35,939 nt of DNA, taken from assembly GCA_026708035.1 (NCBI GenBank), contig JAPOVQ010000008.1, positions 1 through 35,939 of the forward strand, in the 5' to 3' direction. The notes beneath the pieces are model-generated. The model was not told the DNA's origin. It made no database searches and saw nothing but the letters and a program-made list of their open reading frames with translations. A program made the position numbers and the translations under genes. The DNA comes from Chloroflexota bacterium (lineage in GTDB: Bacteria > Chloroflexota > UBA11872). Shown here in pieces: positions 2,809 through 34,739 of the stretch (the stretch's first letter is position 1; the number at the start of each line of letters is the position of its first letter).

Positions 2809-2893
2809 TCCACCCATGCCAGCGGCACTTGCTATTTCAGAGGTTCCCCAAGCCCCACGTATCATCGTCGGAGGGTCAGCACGGAGGGTTGGC

Positions 2894-4193: not shown

Positions 4194-7013
4194 TTGATCG
4201 TTGATCCGGCGGTCCTTCCGGGCCTGCTGCTGCTGGTGGCGGAGCTCGCCGCGCTGGCCGCCGTGGGCTACGTCATCGTGCGGGTGGCGCTGCGTCAGGA
4301 CGACGAGCGCATGGCCTTGGCGCAGGGTCTGGTGGTCGGCCCAGCGCTCTGGGGCGTGATCGTCAATTTCGTGCTTTACGCCATCCCAGGGATGGCGGGA
4401 GCGGCGGTCGGCTGGGGCCTAACGCTCGCACTGGGCGCGGGACTGGCGTGGCGCGCCCCCAATCCCATTCGCCCGCGGCCGCGTGTGCTCGCCGGACTCG
4501 CCCTCGCTGTGCTGGCGCTCTTCTGGGTTGGGCTCGCCGGTCGTCAACTCTTGTCGATTCCCGATGCCATGAACCACGTGGGGTTGGCCGCCTCGATCCG
4601 CGCCGGCGGGTTTCCGCCGGCGTTCTTCTGGATTCCGGACAACCCGGCTCCATACCACTACGGCACCGGCTTGCTGATTGGGCTGCTGGCGCCACCGTTC
4701 GGTCCGGACCTGGCCTTCTCGACCGAGGTCCTGGACGTGTGGATGTGGGCGAGCTTTGTTCTCGTTGTAGTCACGGCCCTGCTGCGGCGCACGTCGAGAT
4801 TCGCGGTGCTGCTCACGGCCCCGCTCCTGTTGACGGCGGGCGCCTGGACCTTTATCGCCGAGCCCGTCGATATCGTGAAGGTGCCCCTCCCGGCGGGGAT
4901 TCCCTCGGCCGGCATCCGCGCTTCGCTGACGGACATCTACTGGCCGCACGTTGAGCTTCCCTGGGCGTCGGAAGGCTCGGCGCTGCCGGACATCTGGCGG
5001 TTTGTCTACACCCTGGCCTATGCGCTGGCGTTCGTGATCCTGGAGCACGCCGCACGCGTGCAGCGCCGGTCGTTGCCCGCTGCCCTCACGCTCGCGGGGC
5101 TAGTCGGCTTCCTTGCCCTTTTGGCGACCACGCTGGCGCCGATCGTGCTCGCCTTGTGGGCTGCCTTGGAGGCCGTGGCTCTCGTGACGTCCTGGCGGGC
5201 AGGTGCTGCGATCCGAGGCACGGCGCTGCGATCGGGCGCGGGGCTGGCGGCCGCCATGCTGATGTATGGCTTTGGCGGCGGCACGTTCGCCTCCGCGCTG
5301 AGCGGCTCCGTGTCGTCCGGCGTGTCCATCGCGTGGAGCCAGCACCCAGGACTCTTTCGGCCGCTTGGATCCTTCGATTCGCTACCCGGCGGCGTCGCGC
5401 TGCTTCGAGGCGGTCCGGTTGTCATCGCCGGCGTCGCGGCGGTACTGGCCAGGCGTGATCGGCTGACGCTGATTCTTGCGGTGGGCGCCTGTGTGCTGGT
5501 GCTGGCCGCCGTGGCGCTGCACTACCACCCGGCGCCGGTGATACTCGGCCGGTTCGTCGGTCACGCGCGCAATTTTGCGCTGCTTGCGCTCGTGCTCGCC
5601 CTCGGCGCTCAGCTCGCAAGCCTGCGGTCGGTGAAGTGGCGGAACGCGGCCGCCGCCGCGCTCCTTGCCCTCGTCGTGTGGCCAACAGCGGTGGCGCCCG
5701 TTCGCAACGCGGCGCTGACGATCGGGCAGGGGACCAAGCTGGTCAACGCCGAATGGCCGCAGCCGTGGCCTGGCGGCCGGTTTGCGTTGCCGCCGATGTC
5801 CGACCGGATCGCCACCTACCTCCGAGTCCACACACCGGCCGACGCGCGGGTCCTCTCGCCCACTCCCACCGACATGTCGTTTTCCACCGTTCCCCTCGCC
5901 ACCGGCCGCCCAAACGCGTCGGGATTCGTCGAGCACATCTATTCCCAGTCGCACACGGGACCCTTCTACGTTGATGCCATCCGCCATCTCGAGCCGGCAG
6001 CCTTCCGGCGGCTGGGCCTCGACTACGTCTACGCGACGGACGATTGGGCAGGCGAACTGCCCGACCGGGCGGCTCGCTGGCTGGAAGATCCCGAACTGTT
6101 CGAGCTCGTGATCCGCGATGGCGCCGAGGCGCTCTACCGGGTGCGGCCCGCGTTCCTCGAGCTCGACGTGGCGCCTACCCCGGCGTCGTTCGAGGCGCTG
6201 CGCCAGGCAGTTCCCGCGGAAACCCTGCTGTACCTGCCCGCCCCATTTCGAACCGTGGACGGGTTGCGCGTGGCGTCGGCGCTTTCCCATGCGCGGCTGC
6301 TCGGCGCGATCGACCCGACGATGATTTATCTGATGACGCCTTGGCGGGCCGAACCCCTCGGCCAGCACGTGCCGGACCTCGTCATCATGTGGCGGCACGT
6401 GGATCCATGGATGTTCCCGCCCGCCGCGCGCCGGCCCATCTGGTGGAACGACGAGATTGCGGTCTATGCGCCGGACGGGGCGGTTGCGCCGATCATGGCG
6501 CCGCCGCCCGAGATCGAGCCGCCGCCCGTCAGCATCCAGGTGTCGAAGGTTGGGGCGGTCGATGGTCGGATCGCCTTCACGGCCAGCTTCGACAACCACG
6601 ATCCCGAGCAGTGGACCGGGCAGGATTGGGTGGTCCTGGTCGGCGACGACTCGCCGTGGGCCCTCCCGATGCACGTGCGCCCCGGGGGGCGGACCATCGG
6701 GAGCGTGGCGTGGTTTCCGGGCCAGGCTGCCGCCACCCAGCGGACGTCAACGTACGCCTACGAGTTCGAGGTCGCGTCGCCCGGCCTGGCGGTGCGCGAT
6801 GCGACTGGTGAGTTGGCTCCGGCCGCCGGATCGTCTCGAGGAATGCTGGGAGCGGGAGCCTGGACGCTCGCGGTGCGCCTGCAGCACGAGTGGAAGCCGC
6901 TTCATTGGCGGCAGGTGAGCCTTATTCCGGTGCTGCGCTTCAGCGTCTCCGAAACTGGCGAAGTCTCGCATGAGGTCTTTGACGACGTGCGCGGCGCAAG
7001 GCCTCTTCCCTAG
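4194..7013 (+). CDS. Large polytopic membrane protein, tandem paralogue 1 (possible GT-C-like transferase)
   Basis: The start is TTG 4194, seven bases after GGAGGG, giving 939 residues. Residues 5-510 hold roughly a dozen or more hydrophobic segments. Between them is a long polar loop with IPDAMNH (Asp124, His128), GGFPP, YHYG (154-157) and PFGPDLAF (168-175), and a GHARN motif (456-460) just before a later helix. A soluble part follows with TGRPN (570-574) and LGLDYVYATD (607-616). The C-terminal part (about 778-939) is predicted beta-rich and contains WTGQDW (807-812). An acidic residue in the first large external loop followed by a late soluble domain is how GT-C glycosyltransferases are built, but I cannot assign a known family. 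Its middle region (PAGIPSAGIRASL) resembles copies 3 and 5. Confidence 0.85.
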   Translation: MIVDPAVLPGLLLLVAELAALAAVGYVIVRVALRQDDERMALAQGLVVGPALWGVIVNFVLYAIPGMAGAAVGWGLTLALGAGLAWRAPNPIRPRPRVLAGLALAVLALFWVGLAGRQLLSIPDAMNHVGLAASIRAGGFPPAFFWIPDNPAPYHYGTGLLIGLLAPPFGPDLAFSTEVLDVWMWASFVLVVVTALLRRTSRFAVLLTAPLLLTAGAWTFIAEPVDIVKVPLPAGIPSAGIRASLTDIYWPHVELPWASEGSALPDIWRFVYTLAYALAFVILEHAARVQRRSLPAALTLAGLVGFLALLATTLAPIVLALWAALEAVALVTSWRAGAAIRGTALRSGAGLAAAMLMYGFGGGTFASALSGSVSSGVSIAWSQHPGLFRPLGSFDSLPGGVALLRGGPVVIAGVAAVLARRDRLTLILAVGACVLVLAAVALHYHPAPVILGRFVGHARNFALLALVLALGAQLASLRSVKWRNAAAAALLALVVWPTAVAPVRNAALTIGQGTKLVNAEWPQPWPGGRFALPPMSDRIATYLRVHTPADARVLSPTPTDMSFSTVPLATGRPNASGFVEHIYSQSHTGPFYVDAIRHLEPAAFRRLGLDYVYATDDWAGELPDRAARWLEDPELFELVIRDGAEALYRVRPAFLELDVAPTPASFEALRQAVPAETLLYLPAPFRTVDGLRVASALSHARLLGAIDPTMIYLMTPWRAEPLGQHVPDLVIMWRHVDPWMFPPAARRPIWWNDEIAVYAPDGAVAPIMAPPPEIEPPPVSIQVSKVGAVDGRIAFTASFDNHDPEQWTGQDWVVLVGDDSPWALPMHVRPGGRTIGSVAWFPGQAAATQRTSTYAYEFEVASPGLAVRDATGELAPAAGSSRGMLGAGAWTLAVRLQHEWKPLHWRQVSLIPVLRFSVSETGEVSHEVFDDVRGARPLP

Positions 7014-7141
7014 ACCCCCGGAGTAATGCTCATGCAACCAACGCGACTTGCGCCAACATTGTTGGGCGTGACGACCTGCGCGCCGGGCCCGCTGGGAGCG
7101 TGCCGAATCGAAGGCTTCGACGCACGGGCGAGGGTGGCTGA

Positions 7142-9985
7142 GTGACGGTTGATTCGGCGGTGCTTCCGGGCCTGCTGCTGCTGGCGGCGGAGGTCGCCGC
7201 GTTGGCCGCCGTGGGTTACGTCATCGTGCGAGTGGCCCTGCGTCAAGACGACGAGCGCATGGCCCTGGCCCAAGGCCTCGTCGTCGGTCCGGCCCTTTGG
7301 GGCCTCATCGTCAACTTCGTCCTGTACGCCGTCCCCGGCCTTGCCGGAGCCGCCGTGGGCTGGGGCGTCGTCATCGCGATCGGCGTGGGACTGGCGTGGC
7401 GGACGAGCCACCGCGTCCGGCCGCCGGCCCGGCTGCTCGCTGGCTTCGTGGTCGCTGTCCTGGCGCTCCTTTGGGCTTCGCTGGCCAGCCGCCAGCTCAT
7501 GGGAATCCCGGATCCCGAGGTTCATATGGGGCTGGCCGCCTTCCTGCGATCCGGCGGATTTCCACCGGAAATGTCGTGGACCGCCGGCGTGCCGGTGCGT
7601 TACCACCACGCGATCGATCTTCTGGTCGGACTGCTGGCGCCGCCGGTGGGGCCGGACCTGGCGTTCGTCACCGAGCTGCTGGGCGTCTACGCCTGGACGA
7701 GCTTTGTCCTGATCGTGATTACCGCGCTGCTCCGTCACGCGTCTCCGGTCGTCGTGGTCGCCGCCGCCCCGCTCCTACTCGCGAACGGTCTCTGGACGTG
7801 GGCGAGCGGCGATGGCGCGGTCTTGCAGGTTCCGATACCGGCGGGATTGCCGGAGGCAAACCTGGGCGCGTCACTCGGCGACGTGTACTGGCCGCCGGTC
7901 GAGCTGGCGCCGGAGGTCAGACTTGCGGATTTGTTGCCGGACTCCGGGCATCCGTCGTTCCCGCTCGGATACGCCCTGACATTCGTGGTGCTGGAGCGCG
8001 TGGCGAGGCTCGAGCGTTGGTCATGGCGCGCGTCGGTCACGGTGGCTGGACTTGTCGGCTTCATGGGGCTCGTCGCGACCACGATCCTGGCGCCGCTGGT
8101 GATCGGGTGGGCCGGTCTGGCCGGCTGGCATCTCATTCGAACCCGGCGTTCCGGCGCAATGCCGGGCGACGCGCTGCGGCTGGGCGCCGGCTTCGCGCTG
8201 GCGGGGATTCTGCTCCTCGGCGGCGGCGGCACGCTCACGAGGATCCTGGATGGCGCGCCGTCCAGCGGTTTGGAGTTGGCGCTCGGCCTCCACCCTCGGG
8301 ATTGGCAGGTGCTCGGCACGCTCGATGCGCGGCCCGGGGGCGTGGGCGTGCTGGGCATCGGGCCGTTGGCGCTCGCCGGAGCCGCCGTGGTGTTGGCGCG
8401 ACGGGATCGACTGGTGGTGGCGCTGACGGCCGCCGCGGCGCTGCTGGTGCTGGCCTGGATATGGCTGCACTATCCGCCGGCTCCCTGGGACCTGAACCGC
8501 CTGGCGGGACACGCTCGAAACCTGGCACTGGTGGCGCTGCTGCTCGCCGCGGCTGTGCGTTTGGGCGACTTCCGCCCCACGCGCGCCCGCTACGCCGCCG
8601 CCGTCGTGGCGATCCTGGTCACCTGGCCCACGGTCGTAGCGCCGGTCCGGAGTCTCGGGCTCGCGATCGGACACGGGGTCCAACTGGCCAACGCCACCTG
8701 GGTGCAGGAGCACTTGATCGATCAGGGCGTGGCCGTGCCCATGCGGCGGTTTCGGATGCCGCAGGTGTCCGCACGCGTTGCGGACTACATCCAGCGCCAC
8801 ACGCCGACGGAAGCGCGGATCCTCGCGCCCGAGGGGCCTTCCTGGGCCGTATCGGCCGCCACCGGTCGCCCGAACAACGCGGGGCTTGCCGGCCTGACGT
8901 ATCTGGTTTACCACTTCGGCCCCGAATACGCGGATGCGGCGGACTACCTGGAGCCGGCCGCCATCCGGCGCCTGGGAATCGACTACGTCCACACGACGGA
9001 TGCCTGGATCAGCGCACTGCCGAGGCGAGCGCAGTCGTGGCTCGCCGATCCGCAACTCTTCGAGCTCTTGGTCAAAGACGGCGACGAGCGGCTGTATCGG
9101 GTGCGGCGGGCGTTCGTTGATCTCGACGTTTCGCCGAATCCCAAGTCGTTTGAAGCCCTGAGGCAATCCGTGCCGCCGTCGGCAGCGGTCTACATCGTGG
9201 CGCCACCCAGGGAACCCGTTACCCTCCGTGTCGCGTCGGCCGTGTCGCACGCCCGGCTCGTGGGAGAAGTGGACCCACTCTTCCTCCACCTGCAACCGCC
9301 CGCGAAGTGGCACGTCGCCCCCCTCACGACCGAATCCCCCGACTTTGTCGCCCTGCCGACGGGCGTCGAGCCCTGGATGTTTCCGCTCTCGGCCCGGTCA
9401 CCGATTTGGTGGCGCGATGATGTCGCGGTCTACGCGCCCAACGGCGCGGCGCCACGGATCATGGATGCTCCGGTCCCGGAGGTTCCGCCGCCGGGCGAGC
9501 CGCCGGTGCTGGTGGAAGTGACCGCCGTGGAGGTGGCCGCAGGCCGCGTCGAGTTCGCGGCGGCGTTCGACGAACGCACCTCGCAGGGTTGGACGAGCCA
9601 GGATTGGGTCGTTCTGGAAGGCGACCTATCCCCGTGGGCCATTCCGACGGAGACGTTTCGCAGGGGTCACGAGCCGACAATCGCGAAGTGGATTGCGGGA
9701 TTGCTATCGGCGGGCAGCGCGACCTCGGCGCACGACTATCGGTTCGACGCCCGGACTTTCGAGTTGTCGGTGCGCAACGACGCTGGGGACTTCGTGCCCC
9801 TGGCATCCTCGGCCGTGAACCTGGGACCCGGAGGCTACACGCTGGCGCTGCGCCTGCGACACGAATACGAGCCGAACCATTGGCGCGACGCCGCCGTGAT
9901 CCCGGTGCTGCGGATCAGGATCGCCGAGAGCGGAGACGTCGCCTATGAACCGTTGGATGACGTTCTCGGCGGGCCGGTCCCATAG
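7142..9985 (+). CDS. Large polytopic membrane protein, tandem paralogue 2
   Basis: The start is GTG 7142 with GAGGG seven bases upstream; the product is 947 residues. It keeps IPDPEVH, YHHAIDLLVG, GPDLAF, GHARN, TGRPN and LGIDYVHTTDAW, and ends with the beta-type domain, in which the motif reads WTSQDW. The middle section (PAGLPEANLGASLGDVYW) and the stretch before the soluble domain (WVQEHLIDQG, MRRF) place it with copies 4 and 6 rather than with copy 1, 3 or 5. It lies 128 bp after copy 1, with no terminator visible between them. Function unknown; see copy 1 for the reasoning on a possible transferase role. Confidence 0.85.
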   Translation: MTVDSAVLPGLLLLAAEVAALAAVGYVIVRVALRQDDERMALAQGLVVGPALWGLIVNFVLYAVPGLAGAAVGWGVVIAIGVGLAWRTSHRVRPPARLLAGFVVAVLALLWASLASRQLMGIPDPEVHMGLAAFLRSGGFPPEMSWTAGVPVRYHHAIDLLVGLLAPPVGPDLAFVTELLGVYAWTSFVLIVITALLRHASPVVVVAAAPLLLANGLWTWASGDGAVLQVPIPAGLPEANLGASLGDVYWPPVELAPEVRLADLLPDSGHPSFPLGYALTFVVLERVARLERWSWRASVTVAGLVGFMGLVATTILAPLVIGWAGLAGWHLIRTRRSGAMPGDALRLGAGFALAGILLLGGGGTLTRILDGAPSSGLELALGLHPRDWQVLGTLDARPGGVGVLGIGPLALAGAAVVLARRDRLVVALTAAAALLVLAWIWLHYPPAPWDLNRLAGHARNLALVALLLAAAVRLGDFRPTRARYAAAVVAILVTWPTVVAPVRSLGLAIGHGVQLANATWVQEHLIDQGVAVPMRRFRMPQVSARVADYIQRHTPTEARILAPEGPSWAVSAATGRPNNAGLAGLTYLVYHFGPEYADAADYLEPAAIRRLGIDYVHTTDAWISALPRRAQSWLADPQLFELLVKDGDERLYRVRRAFVDLDVSPNPKSFEALRQSVPPSAAVYIVAPPREPVTLRVASAVSHARLVGEVDPLFLHLQPPAKWHVAPLTTESPDFVALPTGVEPWMFPLSARSPIWWRDDVAVYAPNGAAPRIMDAPVPEVPPPGEPPVLVEVTAVEVAAGRVEFAAAFDERTSQGWTSQDWVVLEGDLSPWAIPTETFRRGHEPTIAKWIAGLLSAGSATSAHDYRFDARTFELSVRNDAGDFVPLASSAVNLGPGGYTLALRLRHEYEPNHWRDAAVIPVLRIRIAESGDVAYEPLDDVLGGPVP

Positions 9986-10121
9986 GCTCGCTGGACGCCA
10001 TGCTTGCGTCGAGCCCGGCGGGCCCCAACTCGCCCAGGGGAGGATGGGCGCACGATTTGAACCAGCGCCTGAAAACGCGTCATGCGTGGCAGGATCGGAT
10101 TCGCCTGGCGGGAGACGATGA

Positions 10122-12983
10122 ATGACCGTTGACCCCACGGTCGTTCCCGGCCTCCTGCTCCTGGCGGGGGAGCTCATCGCCCTGGCCGCCGTGGGCTACG
10201 TCGTCGCCCGGGTGGTGCTGCGACAGGACGACGAGCGCACGGCCCTAGCCCAGGGTCTGGTGGTCGGGCTCGCTCTTTGGGGCGTGATCGTCAACTTCGT
10301 CATGTACCTGGTTCCGGGCCTCGGCGGGGCCATTGTGGGTTGGAGCGTCACGCTCACCGCGGGCGCTATCCTGGCCTGGCGCGCGCCTCACCCCATAGGC
10401 CCACGGCCGCGCGTGGCCGCGGGGTTTGTCGTTGCGGCCTTGGCGCTCATGTGGATCGCGCTCGCCAGCCGCCAGCTACTGACGATTCCCGACTGGGAAA
10501 TCCACCTGGGCCTGTCCGCCGTGATGCGCGCGGGCGCAGGGTTCCCGCCAGAGCTGCCCTGGAATCCCGGCATCCCGGTGTCCTACCACTACGGCTTCGA
10601 CCTCCTCGTCGGGCTGCTGGCGCCGCCTTTCGGTCCCGACCTTGCCTTCACGACGGAGCTGCTGGGCGTATACATCTGGACGGCCCTCGCGCTCATCGTC
10701 GTGACCACGCTTATCCAGCGCGGCTCGGCGCTGGGGGCGGTGCTCCTGGCGCCGCTGCTGCTCACGGCCGGCGCGTGGACCGTGGTGTTTGTGCCGCCGC
10801 CCGATGTGCTGCTCGTTCCGGTTCCGGCGGGGATTCCGTCCGCCGGGATTCGCGCGTCGCTGACGGACCTCTATTGGCCCAGCGTGCAACTGCCGTGGTT
10901 GTGGCCGGGCCTGGCGTCAGAGGGCCTGTCGACCCCATCGCCGCCGAACCTCTTCAAGCCGTACTTCCCGTTGGCCTACGCACCGGCGCTCGTGGTGCTC
11001 GAGCGGGCCGCATCCCCCGCGGGCCGCTGGCCGGGGCGCAGCGTGGTGCTCGCGCTGCTTGTCGGTTTCGTCAGCCTCTCCGACGAGGCCGTCGCTCCCA
11101 TCGTGCTCGTCCTGTGGGTGGTCTTCGAGGCAATGGCGTTCTGGAAGGCGCGGCAGCCGGGCGCCGACACCACCGGCCTGGCGCTGCGGGCCGCCGCCGG
11201 GCCGGCGCTCGCCATGCTCCTGCTGGTCCTGAGCGGCGGCGCCTTGACGGGTGTACTGACCGATGCGGGCGGGTCCGGCCTCTCGCTCGGGTGGATCGAC
11301 GACGCGAGCGCCCGCCGGCCGATAGCAACGTTTGCCCAGCAGCCGGGCGGCCTGGGCCTGCTGGGGCTCGGTCCCCTCGTCGTGGCCGCCGCCGCCGCGC
11401 TGCTGGCGTGGCGTGATCGGCTGGTGCTGGCGCTGATCGCCGGCGCGTTGGTGTTCCTGCTCGCCGCGTTGACGCTGCAGTACGAGTTCTCACCGGACGT
11501 CGCCCGACTGGACGGCCATGCGCGCAACTTTGCGTTGCTGGCGTTGCTGGTCGCCCTCAGCATGCGTCTCGCGGGCTTGCGGCCGCGCTGGCGCACCGCG
11601 GCCGGCGCGCTGCTCGTGGGCCTGGTGATCTGGCCGACGGTCGCGGCGCCGGCCCGCAATCTCGGCTTGGCGGTCGGCCAGGGCGTGCAATTCGCGAATG
11701 AACCCACGGACAAGCGCGAGTTCAACGTGATTCCCATGGACCGCTATGAGATCAAGCGCTTCGAGTCCAAGCGCATTGCCGCATTTATTCGCGACCACAC
11801 GGCGGTTGACGCGCGCATCCTCACCACGAGCCCACTCGAGATGACGCTCGCGACCGGCCGCCCCAACAGCCTGGGGTTCGTCGGTGTTTCCCATTTGGTG
11901 GCGTTTTCCGGCCCGGACTACGCGGACGCTCGCCGATCGCTCGAGCCCACCGCCATCCGGCGGCTCGGCATCGACTACCTGGTGGTGCCCGGCGCGTGGA
12001 TGGCCGAGCTTCCGGCGCGCGCGCAACGCTGGCTGGCGAACCCTGAGCTGTTCGAGCCACTGGTGCGCGACGGCGACGCCACGCTCTATCGCGTGCGGCC
12101 GGCCTTCCTGCAACTCGATGCGCCGCCCACGCCCGGATCTTTCGCGCACCTGCGATCCTCGGTCCCGCCCGCGACGACCGTGTACCTGCCGCCGCAACTC
12201 CATTGGTTGACGAGGCTGCGCGTGGCGTCGGTTCTGCCGCACGCTCAGCTGCTGGGCACGGTCCATGGGTGGCTGCATCGGCGGATGCCTGCGCCCTGGT
12301 CGGCCGAGCCGCTCGGCGACCGGGCGCCCGATCTCATCGTCCTGCCCGCGACCGTCGAGCCGTGGATGTTGCCGCCCGCCGGCCGGCGGCCCGTGTGGCA
12401 CAACCACGAGATCGCCGTGTATGCGCCGAATGGCGCCATCGCGCCAATCGTTCCGCCGCCCGCGCGGCCCGACCCGCCCGTCGTCGACGTGCGGCTGTCC
12501 GACGCGCGCGCCGCGGATGGCCGCCTCACCTTCACCGGCACCTTCGACAACCGCACACCCGAACAGTGGACCAGCCAGGACTGGATCATGTTCGCCGTGG
12601 ATGACACCCCGTGGAATATTCCGCTGGCCTTCGGTCCCGCCGGACGCATGCCGGAGGTTGCCGCGTGGTTTGACGGCTGGCTGGGGCCAGGGGCGACGAC
12701 CACCACGCACACCTACGAGTTCGACCCGCGGGCATCCCGTCTGGCGATCCGCGATAGCGAAGGCGACTTCACCGCGGCGGCAGCGTCTGGGGACGTACCG
12801 GGTCCCGGCGTTTGGACGCTGGCGCTGCGCCTGCGCCACGAATATCAGTCGAGCCAGTGGCGCGACGCCGCCGTGATCCCGGTGCTGCGGATCAAGATCT
12901 CCCAAGGTGGCGAAGTCGCCTACGAGGTCGTCGACGCCGCGCGCGACGGGCGGCCGCTCCCGAGCGCTGCGGCCATGCCGTAG
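10122..12983 (+). CDS. Large polytopic membrane protein, tandem paralogue 3
   Basis: One of only two copies with an ATG start (10122), preceded by GGGAGA. The 953-residue product has IPDWEIH, YHYGFDLLVG, PFGPDLAF, GHARN, TGRPN and LGIDYLVVPGAW, and the C-terminal motif WTSQDW. A longer external segment with VFVPPPDV, PSAGIRASLTDLYW, WPGLASEGL and SPPNLFKPYF marks a subtype shared only with copy 5; copies 2, 4 and 6 have a shorter, different sequence there. The segment between the last membrane helix and the soluble domain (EPTDKREFN...) also differs from the WVQ-type stretch of the other subtype. If these are transferases, this loop is the natural place for a difference in substrate choice. 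That is inference. Confidence 0.85.
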   Translation: MTVDPTVVPGLLLLAGELIALAAVGYVVARVVLRQDDERTALAQGLVVGLALWGVIVNFVMYLVPGLGGAIVGWSVTLTAGAILAWRAPHPIGPRPRVAAGFVVAALALMWIALASRQLLTIPDWEIHLGLSAVMRAGAGFPPELPWNPGIPVSYHYGFDLLVGLLAPPFGPDLAFTTELLGVYIWTALALIVVTTLIQRGSALGAVLLAPLLLTAGAWTVVFVPPPDVLLVPVPAGIPSAGIRASLTDLYWPSVQLPWLWPGLASEGLSTPSPPNLFKPYFPLAYAPALVVLERAASPAGRWPGRSVVLALLVGFVSLSDEAVAPIVLVLWVVFEAMAFWKARQPGADTTGLALRAAAGPALAMLLLVLSGGALTGVLTDAGGSGLSLGWIDDASARRPIATFAQQPGGLGLLGLGPLVVAAAAALLAWRDRLVLALIAGALVFLLAALTLQYEFSPDVARLDGHARNFALLALLVALSMRLAGLRPRWRTAAGALLVGLVIWPTVAAPARNLGLAVGQGVQFANEPTDKREFNVIPMDRYEIKRFESKRIAAFIRDHTAVDARILTTSPLEMTLATGRPNSLGFVGVSHLVAFSGPDYADARRSLEPTAIRRLGIDYLVVPGAWMAELPARAQRWLANPELFEPLVRDGDATLYRVRPAFLQLDAPPTPGSFAHLRSSVPPATTVYLPPQLHWLTRLRVASVLPHAQLLGTVHGWLHRRMPAPWSAEPLGDRAPDLIVLPATVEPWMLPPAGRRPVWHNHEIAVYAPNGAIAPIVPPPARPDPPVVDVRLSDARAADGRLTFTGTFDNRTPEQWTSQDWIMFAVDDTPWNIPLAFGPAGRMPEVAAWFDGWLGPGATTTTHTYEFDPRASRLAIRDSEGDFTAAAASGDVPGPGVWTLALRLRHEYQSSQWRDAAVIPVLRIKISQGGEVAYEVVDAARDGRPLPSAAAMP

Positions 12984-13161
12984 GCGGGTTGGGCAAGATG
13001 GGCGCCATGCCAGCGATGGACGACAGACCCACCGGCGGCGCGCAGGGACGGGCGGATGCCGGCAGCGTCACCGACGCCAATGCTGCGCCATCTTTGGCGG
13101 AGCGCGCCCGGTGGCCTGCGGCTCGAGCGTCTCGGCTTGATGCAACAGCGAGGTCGTTGGC

Positions 13162-16023: not shown

Positions 16024-16092
16024 ACGAGTCGGGCAAGATGATCCCAATGCCTGAGATGGACAACCGCGGGATGCGCGGTGGAGGCGCTGAGC

Positions 16093-18948
16093 TTGCCCGT
16101 TGATCCAACGGTGATTCCGGGCCTTCTGCTGCTGGCGGCGGAGCTCATCGCCCTGGCCGCGGTGGGCTATGTCGTCGCGCGGGTCGTGCTGCGGCAGTCC
16201 GACGACCGATTGGCGCTCGCCCAAGGTCTGGTGGTCGGGCTCGGGCTCTGGGGGGTGATTGCCAACTTCGCGTTCTACGCCCTACCGGGAGTGCCGGGTG
16301 CGGGCGTGAGCTGGGGCGTGACCCTCATGCTGGGCGCGGTCCTGGCCGGGCGTTCGCCCACCCCCATTCGTCCCCGACTTCGCACGGCGGCGGGCTTCGC
16401 CGTCGCAGCCCTCGTGCTCATGTGGATGGCCCTTGCCAGCCGCCAGTTGCTGACGATTCCGGATTGGCCGGTCCATCTTGGTCTGACCGCCTCGCTGAGG
16501 GCCGGCGAGTTTCCGCCGGTTCTGCCCTGGTCGCCCGGCGTCGCTACTCCCTACCACTATGGCTTCAACCTGCTGGTCGGGTTGCTCGCTCCACCGGTTG
16601 GACCCGACCTGGCGTTCGTGACGGAGCTGCTGGGCGCCTACATTTGGATGAGCCTTGCGCTCATCGTGGTGACCACGCTCATTCAACGTGGCTCCTGGCT
16701 CGTGGCGCTGATTCTGGCGCCGCTCCTCCTTACCGCCGGTGCCTGGACGCTCGTGTTTGTGCCGCCTCCGTACGTGCTCCAGGCGCCATTCCCGGCGGCG
16801 ATCCCATCCGCCGGGATACGCGAGTCGCTGGTGAATGTGTATTGGCCCGCCGTGCAGCTGCCGTGGGATTGGCCGGGGCGCGTGTCGGACGGCCTCACGA
16901 CCGCATCGCCGCCAAACATCTTCAAGCCCTTCTTCACCCTCGCGTACGCGCTGGCATTCGTGGTGCTGGAGCGGGCGGCAGCCTGCACGGATCGCCGGTG
17001 GCCTCGCGCCGCCGTGCTTGCGCTGCTGATCGGATTCTTGGGCCTGGTCGATGAAGCCGTCGCCCCCATCGTGCTCGCCCTGTGGATGGTCCTCGAGGCT
17101 GCGAATCTCTGGGCGAACCGGCCGGCGGGAGGCGCTCGCGTTCGCGCCGTGCGGGACGCCGTTGCGGGACCGGGCCTCGCCGTGTTGCTGCTGGCGTTCG
17201 GCGGTGGCGTGCTCACGAGCGTCCTGCGCGACACCGGAGGGTCCGGCCTCTCGTTTGGGTGGATCGACGACCCGGGAAGCCGCACCCCGCTGGGCGGGAT
17301 CATCGAGCGACCAGGCGGGATTGGCCTGCTGGGATTCGGTCCCCTCCTTGTGGCGGGCGCTGCCGCGCTCCTGAGCTGGCGGGACCGGCTGGTGCTGGCG
17401 CTGGCCGTGGGCGGCGGTGCGTTCCTGGTCGCCGCTTTGACGCTGCACTATGAGTTTTCCGGCGACATCGCCCGATTGGACGGACACGCGCGCAACTTCG
17501 CCTTGCTGGCGTTGCTGCTGGCGCTGGCGACGCGGCTGGCTGGCCTGCAACTCCGTGCGCGCTACGCGGCCACCGCGGTGCTTCTCGCCGTCATCGTCTG
17601 GCCGACGAGCGTGGGGCCGCTCCGCAACTTCGCCCTAGCGGTTGGCCAGGGAACGCACCTTGCGAATGCCCAGGGAGCGTGGCCCGAGCTTGGCCGGCAT
17701 CCCATGGGCCGCCAGCCGATCGTGCGCTTTCCGTCCGAACGCATTGCCGCGCATATCCGCGACCACACGCCGGTCGACGCGCGCGTTTTCTCGCCCAGCC
17801 CGGCGGCGATGTCGGTGGCCACCGGTCGCCCGAACGCGGAGGGGTTTGTCGGGCATGTTCACATGCACGTCTACACCGGCCCTGGGTATCTCGACATCGC
17901 GCGCTATCTCGAGCCGGCGGCAATTCGGCGGCTGGGCATTGGCTACGTGCATGCGCCTGATGCGTGGGTTGACGGCCTACCCAACGAGGCGGCCCAACGG
18001 CTCGGCGACCCTGAATTGTTTGAGCTGTTGATCCGCGACGGGGATCAGGCGCTGTATCGGGTGCGCCGCGCGCTCCTCGAGCTCGATGCGCCACGGCATC
18101 CGGAGTCATTCGAGGCGCTGCGATCCCTTTCGCCGTCGACCATCGTGCGCTTCGCCCCACAGACCCTCTGGCTGGACCGACTGCGCGTCGCCACGGTGCT
18201 GTCGCATGCCCGGCTGGTCGGGGACGTCACCGCCCAGCCCCTCCACCTGCGGACGCCTGAGTCGTGGACGGTCGAGCCGCTGGGCGAGCAGGCGCCTGAT
18301 CTTGTGGTCCTGCCGGCGTCCATCGAGCCGTGGATGTGGGCGTTTCCGCCCGGCGCGCGGCAACCCATTTGGCAGAACGACGATGTAGCCGTCTATGCGC
18401 CAGACGGCATGGTTGCGCCCATCACGCCCCTGCGTGCAGCTCCGACAGCATCTCCGGTTACGGTCAACCTGTCGGATGTGCAGATCGAAAACGGGCGCGT
18501 CACGTTTGCGGCGAGCTTCGAGGAGCACGCGCCGGAACGCTGGACCGGCCAGGACTGGGTCGTTGTCCAGGTGGACGACGGACCCTGGCCGATCCCCAAG
18601 CGTTTCCTCGGTCGAGGACGCGGGCCTTCAATAGCCAAGTGGTTTGCCGGACTGATTTCAGCGGGGTCGGCGACCAGCTCGCACACCTACAGGCTCGACC
18701 TGCCGGCGTTCAGCCTGGCGGTGCGGAACGATTCCGGGGCCTTCGTGCCGCTCGCGGCGTCCGACGATCAGATCGGGACGGGGTCTTGGGTCCTTGCGCT
18801 TCGCCTGCGGCACGAGTGGCAGCCGAACCATTGGCGCGAGATCGCCTCCATTCCCGTGCTGCGAGTCAACGTTTCCGACGCCGGTGAGGTCACCTTCTCG
18901 ATCTTCGACGACGTCCGCGACCAAACGTCAAGCCCAGGGACTCCGTAG
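16093..18948 (+). CDS. Large polytopic membrane protein, tandem paralogue 5 (mosaic)
   Basis: I choose TTG 16093, not GTG 16078, because alignment with the siblings begins there (M-P-V-D-P) and GGTGGAGG then falls at ribosome-site distance. The product is 951 residues. Motifs: IPDWPVH, YHYGFNLLVG, GPDLAF, GHARN, TGRPN, LGIGYVHAPDAW and WTGQDW. The first two thirds follow copy 3, including the long VFVPPP and SPPNIFKPFF loop. From about residue 640 onwards (HPESFEALRS, APQTLWLDRLRVA, WAFPPGARQPIWQN, EEHAPERWTGQDW, GRGRGP) it follows copies 4 and 6. The first ~45 codons and the leader are nearly identical to copy 6. It therefore looks assembled by recombination among its neighbours. Confidence 0.84.
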   Translation: MPVDPTVIPGLLLLAAELIALAAVGYVVARVVLRQSDDRLALAQGLVVGLGLWGVIANFAFYALPGVPGAGVSWGVTLMLGAVLAGRSPTPIRPRLRTAAGFAVAALVLMWMALASRQLLTIPDWPVHLGLTASLRAGEFPPVLPWSPGVATPYHYGFNLLVGLLAPPVGPDLAFVTELLGAYIWMSLALIVVTTLIQRGSWLVALILAPLLLTAGAWTLVFVPPPYVLQAPFPAAIPSAGIRESLVNVYWPAVQLPWDWPGRVSDGLTTASPPNIFKPFFTLAYALAFVVLERAAACTDRRWPRAAVLALLIGFLGLVDEAVAPIVLALWMVLEAANLWANRPAGGARVRAVRDAVAGPGLAVLLLAFGGGVLTSVLRDTGGSGLSFGWIDDPGSRTPLGGIIERPGGIGLLGFGPLLVAGAAALLSWRDRLVLALAVGGGAFLVAALTLHYEFSGDIARLDGHARNFALLALLLALATRLAGLQLRARYAATAVLLAVIVWPTSVGPLRNFALAVGQGTHLANAQGAWPELGRHPMGRQPIVRFPSERIAAHIRDHTPVDARVFSPSPAAMSVATGRPNAEGFVGHVHMHVYTGPGYLDIARYLEPAAIRRLGIGYVHAPDAWVDGLPNEAAQRLGDPELFELLIRDGDQALYRVRRALLELDAPRHPESFEALRSLSPSTIVRFAPQTLWLDRLRVATVLSHARLVGDVTAQPLHLRTPESWTVEPLGEQAPDLVVLPASIEPWMWAFPPGARQPIWQNDDVAVYAPDGMVAPITPLRAAPTASPVTVNLSDVQIENGRVTFAASFEEHAPERWTGQDWVVVQVDDGPWPIPKRFLGRGRGPSIAKWFAGLISAGSATSSHTYRLDLPAFSLAVRNDSGAFVPLAASDDQIGTGSWVLALRLRHEWQPNHWREIASIPVLRVNVSDAGEVTFSIFDDVRDQTSSPGTP

Positions 18949-19117
18949 ACAGGTCGGGCAAGATGGGCCCAATGCCTGAGGTGTACGACTGACGTGTGTG
19001 GGCCCGCATGGAGTCTGGTGGTCCCAGGCGTCGTGAGCCGTCGGCTCGCCCGGAGCACGGCGTTCCGGCCGCCGGGGATCGAGGACACCCGCGGGATGCG
19101 CGGTGGAGGCTTTGAGC

Positions 19118-21955
19118 TTGACCCTTGATCCGACGGTGATTCCGGGCCTTCTGCTGCTGGCGGCGGAGCTCATCACCCTGGCCGCGGTGGGCTACGTCGT
19201 CGCGCGGGTGGTGCTGCGGCAGTCCGATGACCGCATCGCGCTTGCCCAAGGTCTGGTGGTGGGGCTCGCCCTCTGGGGCCTGTTCACCAACTTCGTGCTG
19301 TACCTCGTTCCGGGGCTCGCGGGGGCGGCCGGAGGCTGGGCCGTCACCGTCACCCTGGGTGCAGTGCTGGCCTGGCGCGCGCCTCGTCCCATACGACCCC
19401 GGCCGCGCGTGGCGGCGGGCTTCGCCGTGGCGGTCCTGGCCCTCATCTGGGCGGCGCTCGCCAGCCGCCAGCTGATGGTGATTCCCGACCCACCGATCCA
19501 TCTCGGCCTGGCCGCCGCGTTCCGAGCCGGCGTGTTCCCGCCGGAATTGCCCTGGCATGCGGGCACGCTGGTGCGCTATCACCACGCCACCGACTTGCTG
19601 GTCGGCCTGCTGGCACCGCCCTTCGGACCGGATCTGGCATTCGTCTCGGAGTTGCTGGGGGCCTACGCCTGGACCGGCCTGGTCCTGATCGTGACCACGG
19701 CGCTGCTACAGCGGGCATCGCTCGTCGGCGTGATCGTCGCGGCCCCGTTGATGCTCAGCAGCGGACTCTGGACCTTCACCAACGTCGGCCCCGGGGTTCT
19801 GCACCTGCCCCTGCCGGCTGGATTGCCCGACGCAGGTCTGCGCGCGTCGCTCGGCGATGTCTATTGGCCACAGGTGGAGTTGTCCCCGACCGCGCACATC
19901 TCGGAGGTCCTGGCCGACATCTGGAAGCCGGGATTCCCGCTGGGATACGCCGTGACGTTCGTCGTGCTCAACTTCGCAGCGTGTCATTCACGCTGGTCGT
20001 GGCGAGAGTCGCTGACGCTCGCGGCATTGGTCGGCTTCCTGGGCCTGCTCTCAACCACGCTCGCTCCGGTGGTGCTGATTGCCTGGGCCGGACTGGCGGT
20101 GATGAACGTCCTGCGAGCGCGGCGGACCGAGCCGCCGGCGTCCGCGGCGCTCCGGCTTGGCGCCGGGCCGCTGTTGGGTGGACTGCTGTTTCTCGGCGGC
20201 GGGGGCGCCTTCACGGGATTCCTGGATGGAGCGCCGCCGTCGGGCTTGATGCTGGCGCAAGGCCTCGAGCCCATGCACTGGCAGGCGCTGGGGTCCTTCG
20301 ACGCACGTCCCGGCGGCCTGGGCCTGCTCGGCTTGGGCCCGCTGGCCCTTGGGGGCGTGGCGGCGGCCCTCGCTCGGCGCGACCGGCTGGTGCTGACGCT
20401 GGCGGCGTGCGCCGGCTTGCTGGCGCTCGTTTGGCTCGCGCTGACCTATCCACCGGCGCCTTGGGACCTCAATCGCATGGCCGGGCATGCCCGCAACCTG
20501 GCGCTCGTGGCGCTGCTGCTGGCGATGGGCTCACGCCTCTCCAACCTCCCGCCCGGACGCTGGCGCGCCGTCGCCGGCGTCCTGCTGCTGGGTCTGATCA
20601 CCTGGCCGACGATCGTGGCGCCGGCGCGCAGTCTGGGGCTGGCCATCGGTAATGGCGTGCAGCTGGCGAATGCCAGCTGGGTGCAAACGGAGCTGCGAGA
20701 ACAGGGCGTGGACGTGCCCATGCGCCGGTATCAACTGCGGGCCTTGACGGGACCCGTGGCGGACTTCATCCAGGACCACACCGACGTCGATGCGCGCGTG
20801 CTCGCCACCGAGTGGCCCTATTCGAACGTCTTCTTCGGCACCGGCCGGCCCAATAACGCGGGTTTCGCCGATGTGATCTACCTGCTCTACCACCCAGGTC
20901 CGGAGTATTGGGACGCGCGCCACTACCTGGAGCCGTCGGCCATCCGGCGATTGGGCCTCGAATACGTGCACGCGACCGACGCCTGGGCCGCCGAGTTGCC
21001 CGAACGCGCCAAGGCGTGGCTCGCGGACCCGAGCCTGTTCGAGCTGTTGATCCGCAACGGAAATGAGGCGCTCTATCGCATTCGGCCGGCATTCCTCGCA
21101 CTTGATGCGGCGCCGCATCCCGAGTCGTTCGAAGCGCTGCGCTCGGTGCCCGCGTCGACATCGGTCTACCTGGCCCCGCAGACCATCTGGTTGGACCGTC
21201 TCCGAGTCGCGTCGGTGTTGCCTCACACCCGGCTGGTTGGCGCCATCAGCGCGCGGCCGCTGCACCTGCGCACGCCCGAGCCGTGGACCGTGGAGCCGCT
21301 TGGCGTGGACGTGCCCGATCTCATCGTGCTCCCCGCGTCCGTGGAGCCGTGGACCTGGGCGTTTCCGCCCGACGCCCGGCAGCCCGTCTGGCAGAACGAC
21401 GAGATTGCCGTCTACGCACCCGGCGGAAACGTCGCGCTCATCACGCCGCCGCGCACGACACTTGAAACGCCGCCCGTAACCGTCGTGATAGCCGACGCCC
21501 ACCTCGACGACGGGCGCGTTGCCTTTACCGCCACGTTCGACAACCAGGCGCCGGAGCGATGGACCGGACAGGATTGGGTTGTGGTCGGGGTGGACGACAC
21601 ATCGCCTTGGGAAGCGCCAACCGAGTTTCTCCCCGGAGGCCGGGGGCCGGTGCTTGCCAAGTGGTTCGCCGGGCTACTCTCCTCGAACATGGCCACCAGC
21701 ACCCACTCGTACGAACTAGACGTGCCGGCGAGCAGGCTGGCGGTGCGAAACCAGAGCGAGGCCTTGGTGCCGCTCGACGCATCGGAGGGCGACTTAGGCG
21801 CGGGGTCCTGGGTCTTGGCGCTCCGCCTGCAGCACGAATGGCAGGCAAACCTCTGGCGCGAGGCCGCCTTCATTCCGGTGATCCGGATTGATGTCTCCGA
21901 GGACGGCCAGATCACGTATTCGGTGTACGAGAACGTTCGCGGCGAATTGCCTTAG
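19118..21955 (+). CDS. Large polytopic membrane protein, tandem paralogue 6
   Basis: TTG 19118 is preferred over GTG 19103 for the same reason as in copy 5: homology begins at M-T-L-D-P and GGTGGAGG precedes it. The product is 945 residues. Motifs: IPDPPIH, YHHATDLLVG, PFGPDLAF, GHARN, TGRPN, LGLEYVHATDAW and WTGQDW. The body is closest to copy 4 (WKPGFPL, QLRALTGPVADFI), while the 5' end and leader match copy 5. The leader of this copy has about 100 extra bases between the two blocks it shares with copy 5. Confidence 0.85.
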   Translation: MTLDPTVIPGLLLLAAELITLAAVGYVVARVVLRQSDDRIALAQGLVVGLALWGLFTNFVLYLVPGLAGAAGGWAVTVTLGAVLAWRAPRPIRPRPRVAAGFAVAVLALIWAALASRQLMVIPDPPIHLGLAAAFRAGVFPPELPWHAGTLVRYHHATDLLVGLLAPPFGPDLAFVSELLGAYAWTGLVLIVTTALLQRASLVGVIVAAPLMLSSGLWTFTNVGPGVLHLPLPAGLPDAGLRASLGDVYWPQVELSPTAHISEVLADIWKPGFPLGYAVTFVVLNFAACHSRWSWRESLTLAALVGFLGLLSTTLAPVVLIAWAGLAVMNVLRARRTEPPASAALRLGAGPLLGGLLFLGGGGAFTGFLDGAPPSGLMLAQGLEPMHWQALGSFDARPGGLGLLGLGPLALGGVAAALARRDRLVLTLAACAGLLALVWLALTYPPAPWDLNRMAGHARNLALVALLLAMGSRLSNLPPGRWRAVAGVLLLGLITWPTIVAPARSLGLAIGNGVQLANASWVQTELREQGVDVPMRRYQLRALTGPVADFIQDHTDVDARVLATEWPYSNVFFGTGRPNNAGFADVIYLLYHPGPEYWDARHYLEPSAIRRLGLEYVHATDAWAAELPERAKAWLADPSLFELLIRNGNEALYRIRPAFLALDAAPHPESFEALRSVPASTSVYLAPQTIWLDRLRVASVLPHTRLVGAISARPLHLRTPEPWTVEPLGVDVPDLIVLPASVEPWTWAFPPDARQPVWQNDEIAVYAPGGNVALITPPRTTLETPPVTVVIADAHLDDGRVAFTATFDNQAPERWTGQDWVVVGVDDTSPWEAPTEFLPGGRGPVLAKWFAGLLSSNMATSTHSYELDVPASRLAVRNQSEALVPLDASEGDLGAGSWVLALRLQHEWQANLWREAAFIPVIRIDVSEDGQITYSVYENVRGELP

Positions 21956-22089
21956 CGTCCCTGGACGCCGCGCTTGCGCCGATTGGGTCGGGCACGGGGC
22001 TCTTGCGGCGGACCCGCCGGGCGCCGGACGAATCGCGCAGCACCATCTGACCCGCCGCAAGCGCCGACACATCGGGTGAAAATGGACGA

Positions 22090-24441
22090 ATGATCGTCGA
22101 TCCGGCCGTGATCCCGGGGGTGCTGCTCCTGGCGGCGGAGCTCGCGGCGCTGGCCGCGGTCGGCTATGTCGTCGTCCGCGTGGCCCTGCGGCAGGCCGAC
22201 GAGCGGGCAGCCCTGGCGCAGGGGCTGGTCGTCGGCCTCGCGCTTTGGGGATTGATCACGAACTTCGTGCTCTACGTCGTGCCGGGTCTCGCCGGCGCTG
22301 CCGTCGGCTGGGGGGTCACGCTGGTTCTGGGCGCGGTCCTTGCGCGGCGCGCGCCCCAATCAATCCGACCGCGGCCGCGAGTCGTGGCGGTCTTCGTGTT
22401 GGCCGTCTTGGCCCTCCTCTGGCTAACGCTCGCCAGTCGGCAGCTGTTCGAAAGCCCGGACCCAACGCTGCATCTGGGGCTGTCGGCATGGATCCGCGCG
22501 GGAGGGTTTCCGCCGGAGGCGCCCTGGAATCCAGGCAGCCCCGTGCGCTACCACCACGCCGTCGATCTGCTGGTCGGCCTGCTCACGCCGCCGATCGGGC
22601 CCGACCTGGCGTTCGTGCAGGAGCTGCTTGGCGCCTACGCCTGGACGGCCTTCGCCTTGGTGGTGGTGACGGGGCTGTTGGGGCGTGGGTCGTGGCGAGT
22701 CGCGCTGGTCGTTTCCCCGCTGCTGCTCACCGCCGGCGCCTGGACCTGGACCGACTTGGGCGGCGGCATTCTGCAGATTCTCGTGCCCGCGGGACTACCG
22801 GCAGCCGATGTAGGGGGCGCAGTTGCCGAGGTCACCTGGCCGGCGCTCGGGCCGTCGTGGCCGTCGGAACCGGCGGCGCTGCACGACATCTGGACACCGG
22901 CCTTCACCCTGGGATACGCGCTCACGTTCGTGGTGCTGGGGCACGCGGTCCGATCTGAACGCGAGACGTGGCACGGCGTGCTGACGCTTGGGGCGATCGT
23001 CGGATTCCTCGGCATTCTCGTGACCTCGCTCGCGCCCGTGGTGGTTGTCGTGTGGGCCGTCCTGGCGGCTGTCCACGTGGTGCGAGATCGGCCCGGCGGC
23101 GGCGCCGTGCTGCGACTGGGCGCCGGGCTTGGGCTGGCCGTGCTCCTGATGCTGTTCGGCGGGAGCGCCTTCACCGCGCTCTTCGACGGTGGACCATCCA
23201 CCGGCCTCGGACTGTCGTGGGACGTCGATCGAACGCGCTGGCGGGCGTTCGGCACGTTCGACGCGCGGGCGGGCGGCATCGGCGTGCTGGGTATCGGCCC
23301 CGTGGTCGTGGCGGGCCTCGCCGTGCTCCTGGCGCGCCGCGATCGCCTGGTGGTTGCGCTAGCCGCGAGCGCCGCCGTGCTGCTGGCGGCCTGGCTGGTT
23401 CTCAGCTATTTGCCCGCGCCGTGGGTGGTGAGCCGATTGGCGGGACATGCCCACAATCTCGCGCTTGTGGCGCTGCTGCTCGCGCTCGCCACCCGGCTCT
23501 CCAGCCGAGTGTCAGCCCGATGGCATGGCGCCGCCGGCCTCCTACTCGTCGCCGTCGTCGTCTGGCCGACCATTGCGGGGCCAGTGCGCAGTCTCGCGGC
23601 GGCGGTTGGAAGCGGTGTGCAGCTGGCCAACACCGACTGGGTCCGGCGAGAGCTTCACCGCCAAGGCCCGGCGTCACTGCGGCGGTTTGAAATGCCGATC
23701 ATGTCGGACCGCCTGGCGAGCTACATCCGCGACCGCACGCCGTTGCACGCCCGGGTGCTGACGCCCGAGTGGCCCTATTGGGCGGTGTCCCTGGCAACCG
23801 GCCGGCCCAGCAGCGCAGGGTTCTCCGATCTGCGGCACCTCATCTACTTCACCGGCCCGGAATACCTGGACGCCGTCAGCTACCTGGAGCCCGACGCCAT
23901 CCGCAGGCTGGGCATCGAGTACGTCCACGCCACGGACGCCTGGGCGGCCGCGCTGCCGCCGCGGGCGCAGGGCTGGCTGGCCGACCCGAGCCTGTTCGAG
24001 CTGCTGGCGCGCGATGGCGCCGAATCGCTCTACCGCGTCAGGCAGGCGTTCCTGACGCTCGACGTCGAGTCGCATCCCGAGTCATACGAAGCGCTGCGCT
24101 CGGCGCCGTCGTCGACGATCGTGCATCTCGCCCCGGAGCTCGGCTGGTTGGACGGGCTGCGAGTCGCCTCGGTGCTGTCCCACACGCGCCTGGTCGGCGC
24201 CGTCGACACGCAGCATTTACACCTGCTGGCGTCCGCGTCCTGGACGCTGGAGCCGCCGGGCGGACGGACGCCCGATCTGGTGGTCCTGCCGGCGTCCGTC
24301 GAGCCACCGACGGCGCCGAATGTGGAGTGGACGCGAATCTGGCGCAACGACGACATCGCGGTCTACGCGCCGGCCTCCTCGCGCAGCCGTGCCACGAATG
24401 AGTCTTGGACCACGCTCACCGCATCCAGGGGGATCGGCTGA
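22090..24441 (+). CDS. Polytopic membrane protein, tandem paralogue 7, C-terminally truncated
   Basis: ATG 22090; 783 residues, about 160-170 shorter than its siblings. It keeps the membrane part and the first soluble domain: SPDPTLH, YHHAVDLLVG, GPDLAF, LGIEYVHATDAW. Two motifs deviate: GHAHN instead of GHARN, and TGRPS instead of TGRPN. Homology stops sharply after NDDIAVYAP (residue 761, base 24372). The last 22 residues are read from the strand opposite the convergent SAF-domain gene, which this gene overlaps by 79 bp. The whole WTGQDW-type C-terminal domain is missing. It reads as a deletion or rearrangement product; whether the shortened protein works is open. Confidence 0.8.
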   Translation: MIVDPAVIPGVLLLAAELAALAAVGYVVVRVALRQADERAALAQGLVVGLALWGLITNFVLYVVPGLAGAAVGWGVTLVLGAVLARRAPQSIRPRPRVVAVFVLAVLALLWLTLASRQLFESPDPTLHLGLSAWIRAGGFPPEAPWNPGSPVRYHHAVDLLVGLLTPPIGPDLAFVQELLGAYAWTAFALVVVTGLLGRGSWRVALVVSPLLLTAGAWTWTDLGGGILQILVPAGLPAADVGGAVAEVTWPALGPSWPSEPAALHDIWTPAFTLGYALTFVVLGHAVRSERETWHGVLTLGAIVGFLGILVTSLAPVVVVVWAVLAAVHVVRDRPGGGAVLRLGAGLGLAVLLMLFGGSAFTALFDGGPSTGLGLSWDVDRTRWRAFGTFDARAGGIGVLGIGPVVVAGLAVLLARRDRLVVALAASAAVLLAAWLVLSYLPAPWVVSRLAGHAHNLALVALLLALATRLSSRVSARWHGAAGLLLVAVVVWPTIAGPVRSLAAAVGSGVQLANTDWVRRELHRQGPASLRRFEMPIMSDRLASYIRDRTPLHARVLTPEWPYWAVSLATGRPSSAGFSDLRHLIYFTGPEYLDAVSYLEPDAIRRLGIEYVHATDAWAAALPPRAQGWLADPSLFELLARDGAESLYRVRQAFLTLDVESHPESYEALRSAPSSTIVHLAPELGWLDGLRVASVLSHTRLVGAVDTQHLHLLASASWTLEPPGGRTPDLVVLPASVEPPTAPNVEWTRIWRNDDIAVYAPASSRSRATNESWTTLTASRGIG

Positions 24442-34071: not shown

Positions 34072-34473
34072 CTATTGGTGGGGCGGCGTGATGAAGTCGC
34101 ACCTCGGACCGCTGGCGCGGCTGAGCCGGCGATCGAGCGTCACGAGCGGATAGTCGAGGGCCTCGGCCAACGCGACATACCACGCGTCGTAACTGGTGAC
34201 GTTTGCGCGCAGCGCCCACACGCGCTCGGCGTACGGGGCGAACGAAAACAAGGCAATATCCAACCGCAGCATGTCGCGGTGGCTGGCAGTGGCTTGCAGC
34301 GTTGAAATCCGGCCGGATCGCTCCATCCGGCGCAGGATGTTGCTGGTCTCGGCTAAGACGAACTCCGGTCCGGCCACGGGGCCTTCGGCAACAGCCGCTT
34401 CGGCCCAGGATCCTACGGGTCCAGTCTCGACTAGAGCCGCGACGAGGACGGATGCGTCGACGACGGCCCTCAC
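34072..34473 (-). CDS. vapC: PIN-domain toxin (VapC-type ribonuclease)
   Basis: 133 residues from GTG 34473, whose first bases overlap the antitoxin stop (GTGA, 4 bp), the usual VapBC arrangement. The four acidic PIN residues are present: Asp in VVDASVLV, Glu in VLAETSNIL, Asp in SYDAWYVALAE, and Asp in LVTLDRRL. Such toxins cleave specific RNAs (tRNA or rRNA) with Mg2+ when the antitoxin is degraded. The target is unknown. Confidence 0.88.
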   Translation of the reverse strand: MRAVVDASVLVAALVETGPVGSWAEAAVAEGPVAGPEFVLAETSNILRRMERSGRISTLQATASHRDMLRLDIALFSFAPYAERVWALRANVTSYDAWYVALAEALDYPLVTLDRRLSRASGPRCDFITPPHQ

Positions 34474-34706: not shown

Positions 34707-34710
34707 AGCA

Positions 34711-34739
34711 GCACAATGCCAGCATTGCTGGCATTGTGC
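34711..34739. promoter_or_regulatory. Operator palindrome of the toxin-antitoxin operon
   Basis: The arms GCACAATGCCAGCA and TGCTGGCATTGTGC are perfect complements around one central T. The palindrome ends four bases before the antitoxin ATG. On the minus strand a TTGCAC, a 17-base gap and CATTGT can be read as -35 and -10 boxes overlapping it, so binding by the antitoxin would block RNA polymerase. No ribosome site fits between palindrome and ATG, so a leaderless transcript is likely. Confidence 0.75.

Follow-up and report, generated by a model that had tools for sequence, protein, structure and literature searches.

The window analyzed here is a whole contig of 35,939 nucleotides from a 3.46 Mb, 96%-complete Chloroflexota genome, and between positions 4194 and 24441 (+) it carries seven same-strand open reading frames that are paralogues of one another (53-75% identical). 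We conclude that the proteins they encode most likely represent an unnamed, expanded family of GT-C glycosyltransferases and not a new kind of enzyme. The explanation we favor, to which we assign a probability of roughly 60%, is that they are parallel extracytoplasmic transferases of the GT-C(A) type with differing acceptor or linkage preferences that diversify an envelope glycan.

As we envisage it, each copy would be a GT-C(A)-type enzyme whose first external loop (EL1) bears, on a juxtamembrane helix, an aspartate of the catalytic type. To this are added an extracytoplasmic alpha/beta region and, in all copies but the last, an Ig-like beta-sandwich. If the copies work as characterized GT-C enzymes do, a sugar would be taken from a polyprenyl-phosphate donor at the outer leaflet and handed to an acceptor outside the membrane, and the array would constitute a repertoire of such transferases, each with its own acceptor or linkage preference. 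Turnover of this repertoire via tandem duplication, loss and intragenic recombination could then leave related species with different envelope glycans. Catalytic activity, the lipid-linked donor and the membrane topology of the copies are what we infer; that the product is a surface glycan, and that symbiosis or phage evasion is the reason for it, are guesses. The initial annotation had also considered glycan export, which we do not favor; transfer outside the membrane is the preferred reading.

The array and its conserved locus

The seven copies and the two genes that flank them are as follows:

2816..4150, + strand: Gfo/Idh/MocA oxidoreductase, upstream flank of the array, conserved in 6/6 species; its true start may be nearer 2930
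4194..7013, + strand: copy 1, 939 aa, TTG start, putative GT-C-like membrane glycosyltransferase
7142..9985, + strand: copy 2, 947 aa, GTG start
10122..12983, + strand: copy 3, 953 aa
13162..16023, + strand: copy 4, 953 aa, TTG start, 75% identical to copy 6
16078..18948, + strand: copy 5, 956 aa, GTG start; a mosaic that joins copy 3 in trees of the catalytic core and copies 4 and 6 in those of the C-terminal part
19103..21955, + strand: copy 6, 950 aa, GTG start, the protein modelled
22090..24441, + strand: copy 7, 783 aa, without the C-terminal beta domain
24363..25712, - strand: DRL_cat/SAF oxidoreductase, conserved downstream flank, convergent with the array and overlapping the end of copy 7

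Spacers within the array are 43-178 bp long. Copies 4 and 6 are the closest pair in the window, and copy 1 is 53-54% identical to each of the others in full-length alignment. The initial annotation had described seven tandem paralogues with two soluble domains apiece, and the array is indeed present as described, but not every copy has both soluble regions because copy 7 is short and lacks the C-terminal beta domain. A frameshift or truncation artefact in copy 7 is ruled out, since an equally short orthologue ends the array in five other species (G001-G005).

Six separately assembled genomes of the genus have the array at this locus, flanked by the same pair of genes; it comprises 7, 4, 8, 12, 9 and 7 copies and always ends in a short copy. 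The flanking-gene proteins are 87-95% identical across these genomes. An assembly artefact is in practice excluded, because six independent genomes carry the array between the same flanks with differing copy numbers. In the comparison with related genomes that had been proposed for array size and neighbors, the flanking genes are constant and the copy number varies from 4 to 12. In a genome of the sister genus that is assembled as a single contig (G006), the same DRL_cat/SAF gene is found downstream of a two-copy array.

How widely is the family distributed? Our scan of 84,980 species genomes returned matches in Chloroflexota MAGs only, and 20 of the 41 genomes of the class that we examined have the family, comprising 18 of the 19 from its own taxonomic family and one genus of a neighboring family. 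The source genome has 14 full members: besides the seven in the window, contig C23 has four, C17 two and C35 one. Two of the MAGs returned carry the prefixes RHO3 and COS3, which, reading from the names alone, would match the sponge genera Rhopaloeides and Coscinoderma that were sampled in PMC8163846. The sponge-Chloroflexi literature we examined reports other glycosyltransferase families or none. Two array members, L064 (G006:C1:2238179-2240577) and L069 (G020:C19:354275-357097), are interrupted by a frameshift or an in-frame stop, the result of either decay or faulty assembly. Two species have an unrelated 513-aa membrane protein with no confident Pfam match interleaved in their arrays (L101, G003:C2:25693-27231; L102, G001:C8:38355-39893).

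Predicted fold, candidate catalytic site and distant relatives

Sequence searches of Pfam, NCBIfam and the PDB gave no confident match for the array proteins, in keeping with the first impression that the family is nameless, and none of the 52 members scanned matched the PMT_2/GT39 Pfam model. We therefore turn to structure: copy 6 was modelled with AlphaFold2 from a 52-sequence family alignment (pLDDT 89.5, pTM 0.87), and all residue numbers below are those of copy 6. The best 12 Foldseek matches to the PDB are all GT-C proteins, including CeDPY19, AftA, OST, ArnT, PglB and ALG9, with E values of 1.6e-5 to 4.8e-5 for the best three. In VIA-align, OST, AftA and ArnT align over 421-486 residues with Z of about 13 (12.7 for ArnT), a score that by itself can arise by chance for helical models; the first 34 rows are all GT-C, after which Z falls to 6.6 and below. 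PMT and AftB are also among the top structural matches. We base the GT-C assignment not on that Z alone but on the uniformity of the list, the extent of the alignments (421-486 residues, with external parts among them) and the site described below. The GT-C fold had been a guess in the initial annotation, and the model, structure search, motif and profile comparison all uphold it.

Copy 6 is predicted to span the membrane with 14 helices, of which the first three are extra and the remaining 11 form the GT-C core; we read this topology from helix order in the model. Its main parts are:

19415..20650, + strand: predicted GT-C core, residues 105-516, TM helices 4-14 of the model, with topology likewise read from the model
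19469..19633, + strand: EL1, residues 123-177, in which D129 heads helix 130-141, followed by FPPELPW and YHH and by helix 162-170
20747..21097, + strand: predicted extracytoplasmic domain 1, residues 549-665, with TGR (580-582) and D604
21461..21937, + strand: predicted C-terminal Ig-like beta-sandwich, residues 787-945

Predicted alone and searched, the C-terminal sandwich found generic Ig-like matches only (Z of 6.4 or less), and a carbohydrate-binding role for it is consequently a guess.

In the GT-C(A) module, TM1 and TM2 are separated by two juxtamembrane helices, the first of which has an essential aspartate at its tip (PMC12041299). Both the model and the structure search recover this seven-helix module: in copy 6 the order is helix 101-122, EL1 with helices 130-141 and 162-170, and helix 178-204, after which more TM helices follow. 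By sequence order in the model, D129 directly precedes helix 130-141, which is the GT-C(A) catalytic position. Extending the VIA ranges without gaps, which gives rough positions, places D129 at AftB 64 (the catalytic residue is D62) and at ArnT 53. This aspartate is kept in 77 of 86 members, including all seven window copies. In the other nine (L017, L018, L037, L028, L052, L011, L012, L014 and L016) it is replaced by E (3), N (3), H (2) or R (1), and each N variant has a D four residues on. EL1 also has P146, H160 and an FPP..W...YH motif. R35, E183, R458, R582 and D604 are invariant in the family, while H160, H462, R464 and T580 are nearly so; of these, R458, R582, D604, H160, H462, R464 and T580 are predicted to be on or near the external face.

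It had been claimed that divergence is concentrated in the external loops, and this is true only in part. Entropy is 1.8-2.5 bits in EL2, EL4, the linker and the beta domain as opposed to 1.0-1.5 in the membrane helices, but the cytoplasmic loops are equally variable (2.0) and EL1 is conserved (1.34). The most conserved part of the protein is the N-terminal three-helix bundle, ahead of the core. Recent homogenization is not supported as the cause, as four-fold sites there are only a little less diverged (0.38-0.50) than elsewhere (0.42-0.62).

The relatives of the family are also distant at the sequence level. TIGR03662 (Chlor_Arch_YYY) and PF10060 (DUF2298) match its N-terminal region weakly and far under their cut-offs, the best scores being 35.1 against a cut-off of 300.25 for TIGR03662 and 21.1 bits against 27.8 for PF10060 in the source genome, so that the scores place the array proteins in neither family. 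A bridge between them is provided by a paralogue that occurs once, or a few times, in most genomes of the taxonomic family, with the motifs FxDExWHxxLA...FPPVTPYG...GYHYG. In the source genome it is split by a frameshift (L100, G000:C1:166500-172000), and it is intact in several relatives at about 1035 aa. Using hhalign, this single-copy paralogue matched the array family at 100% (E 6e-57) and DUF2298 at 95.4% (E 1.9e-8), whereas direct profile comparison of the array family with DUF2298 was weak (16%, E 0.0015). As the direct link is weak and the paralogue bridges both, we consider the array family a distant sister of DUF2298 and not a member of it. Judged from these profiles, the array family and DUF2298/YYY share common ancestry in a wider clan, and the earlier suggestion of DUF2298/YYY as a GT-C relative is thus borne out as distant kinship. 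Like the array family, DUF2298/YYY proteins have three N-terminal helices and then a GT-C-like loop, whose motif FPPxDPWxAGxxxNYYYFG aligns with FPPELPWxxGxxxRYHYG of the array family. The two differ in that the NYYYFG-type motif is absent from the array family, which has xYH[HY][GA] in its place, and in copy number: almost all genomes of the class have 1-3 copies of DUF2298, while the array family reaches 18 per genome among the class genomes examined. We found no paper for TIGR03662 under that name, although DUF2298 does receive mention in the literature. Contig C23, which carries the second array, also has a 1645-aa ORF about 28 kb away from it in which PMT_2 and true DUF2298 regions are combined (L070/L132, G000:C23:20779-24684), and this fits a sugar-transfer role for that protein.

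Selection, turnover and competing explanations

Orthologous copies have dN/dS values of 0.17-0.35 compared with 0.04-0.19 for the flanking genes, and in EL1 the values are 0.04-0.13 in all ten orthologue pairs examined. These are therefore maintained genes that evolve faster outside the site, and the array is not decaying because its orthologues are under purifying selection. In a tree of 58 members the short last copy forms one orthologue group in 6/6 species and the penultimate copy is also largely orthologous across species. The Gfo-proximal part of the array, by comparison, turns over, as illustrated by six lineage-specific copies in G003.

The catalytic core and the C-terminal part give conflicting trees. 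The core of copy 5 groups with copy 3 and its C-terminal part with copies 4 and 6, and copy 1 of G004 has the same kind of discordance; the swapped grouping was rejected in both regions for each (AU p of 1e-51 and 0.003 for copy 5, 5e-93 and 5e-4 for G004 copy 1), in tests of groupings that were picked after the trees were seen. Copies 1 and 8 of G004, which are 80% identical overall, share a 675-bp identical tract, and two copies on contig C23 share 351 identical bases. A strict criterion marks 3 of the 41 full-length copies as strongly discordant, to which the older case of copy 5 is added. Recombination is thus real but not dominant, and rampant domain shuffling is ruled out by the same count. 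The copies turn over via duplication and intragenic recombination. Among the 25 longest inverted repeats only pairs of 70-84% complementarity were found and no convincing switching device, and tandem repeats and SSRs were too weak to suggest a phase-variable cassette.

What else might such an array do? One answer is the glycosylation of secreted proteins by PMT- or OST-like enzymes, each copy with its own set of proteins. Oligosaccharyltransferases and Pmt1-Pmt2 are among the best structural matches, and in structure comparison the extracytoplasmic region aligns to the C-terminal globular domain of STT3/AglB; however, the array proteins have no sequence match to the STT3 or PMT families and arabinosyltransferases score equally. 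The fold does not decide between a protein and a glycan acceptor, because both types of GT-C enzyme share it, and we consider protein glycosylation unlikely, if the strongest of the competing ideas. We think it less probable still that these are non-catalytic or non-transferase proteins with a GT-C fold, such as structural partners or lipid-carrier binders, that were expanded for binding. Dead GT-C subunits do exist, for example PIGU in which DxD is replaced by SSW (PMC12653191), the N-terminal bundle and not the core is the most conserved part, and some members may be inactive as nine of 86 are without the EL1 aspartate. Yet retention of that residue in all other members and in every window copy, the consistently low EL1 dN/dS, and the fact that six of the nine exceptions have either E or a D four residues away all speak against this idea.

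Tandem arrays often raise dosage, and the identity between copies 4 and 6 might be taken to mean that many copies supply one activity in amount and not in variety. Against this, the window copies differ from one another at 22-58% of positions depending on region with synonymous sites near saturation, distinct orthologue groups are each retained across species, and no near-identical copies were seen save for short conversion tracts, which makes simple dosage very improbable, even if two transferases of equal function could diverge as well. Returning to parallel transferases with different preferences, a more elaborate version is a recombining GT-C repertoire in which core and C-terminal domains are exchanged and each sponge-symbiont species or strain shows its own surface glycans. 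We put this forward tentatively, as a possibility with the odds against it. In its effect such a repertoire would resemble serotype-switching or antigenic-variation loci, although it would be made of whole membrane enzymes.

Several known systems resemble the array in part. Serotype-changing GT-C enzymes include Gtr and GT136, the latter with a carbohydrate-binding module (PMC11127046). The Gtr/GT136 enzymes of O-antigen serotype conversion are extracytoplasmic GT-C proteins whose variation alters the surface glycan, akin to the role proposed for the array, but they belong to three-component operons with a donor synthase and a flippase and usually one transferase, whereas the array has many lone transferases and no GtrA. 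The mycobacterial arabinosyltransferases AftA, AftB and EmbA-B-C (VIA Z 7-13) share with the array family the GT-C(A) fold and external carbohydrate-related domains, and the Emb proteins are a small tandem paralogue set. They have no detected sequence similarity to the array family, the copy number of which is far larger and unstable. ArnT/PMT_2 (GT39) proteins also have the GT-C(A) fold, and their DE-type motif in loop 1 resembles FxDExWH of the single-copy paralogue; the array family differs from them in its extra N-terminal helices and beta-sandwich as well as in the missing PMT_2 Pfam match.

An unnamed GT-C family is hereby added to the sugar-transferring membrane enzymes, and the single-copy paralogue that links it to the uncharacterized DUF2298/YYY proteins is a lead to the function of both. 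With 4 to 12 copies in different species at one fixed place between neighbors that are about 90% identical, the locus amounts to a natural experiment in the evolution of transferase specificity. Should the product be a surface glycan, there would also be a testable molecular basis for host or phage recognition of these sponge bacteria.

Genes around the arrays

Sugar genes nearby had been cited in favor of a glycan role, an argument that is weak in the window and stronger in the sister genus. The window neighbors are sugar oxidoreductases and unrelated genes, with no glycan-assembly cluster adjoining the array, and the 96%-complete genome has no match to GtrA (PF04138), the flippase of the three-component Gtr type. 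In the sister genus g2, two convergent arrays are situated between a block with MreB and RodA/PBP2-like genes, of which MreB alone was confirmed by Pfam, and an asparagine synthase gene; an NAD-epimerase gene lies between the two arrays and a PMT_2 protein is encoded nearby. This envelope-like neighborhood supports, but does not prove, a glycan role.

Two further features of the window deserve mention. An ORF of 1106 aa (28801-32121, +) has a GC content of 55% compared with about 69% elsewhere in the window, with no match in Pfam or PADLOC and no convincing one in NCBIfam; it looks like a recent insertion, because G005 is without it and has its two flanking genes adjacent. At 34075-35198 (-) a PIN-domain gene lies beside a FitA-like ribbon-helix-helix gene, and the pair is probably a toxin-antitoxin system of the VapBC/FitAB type.
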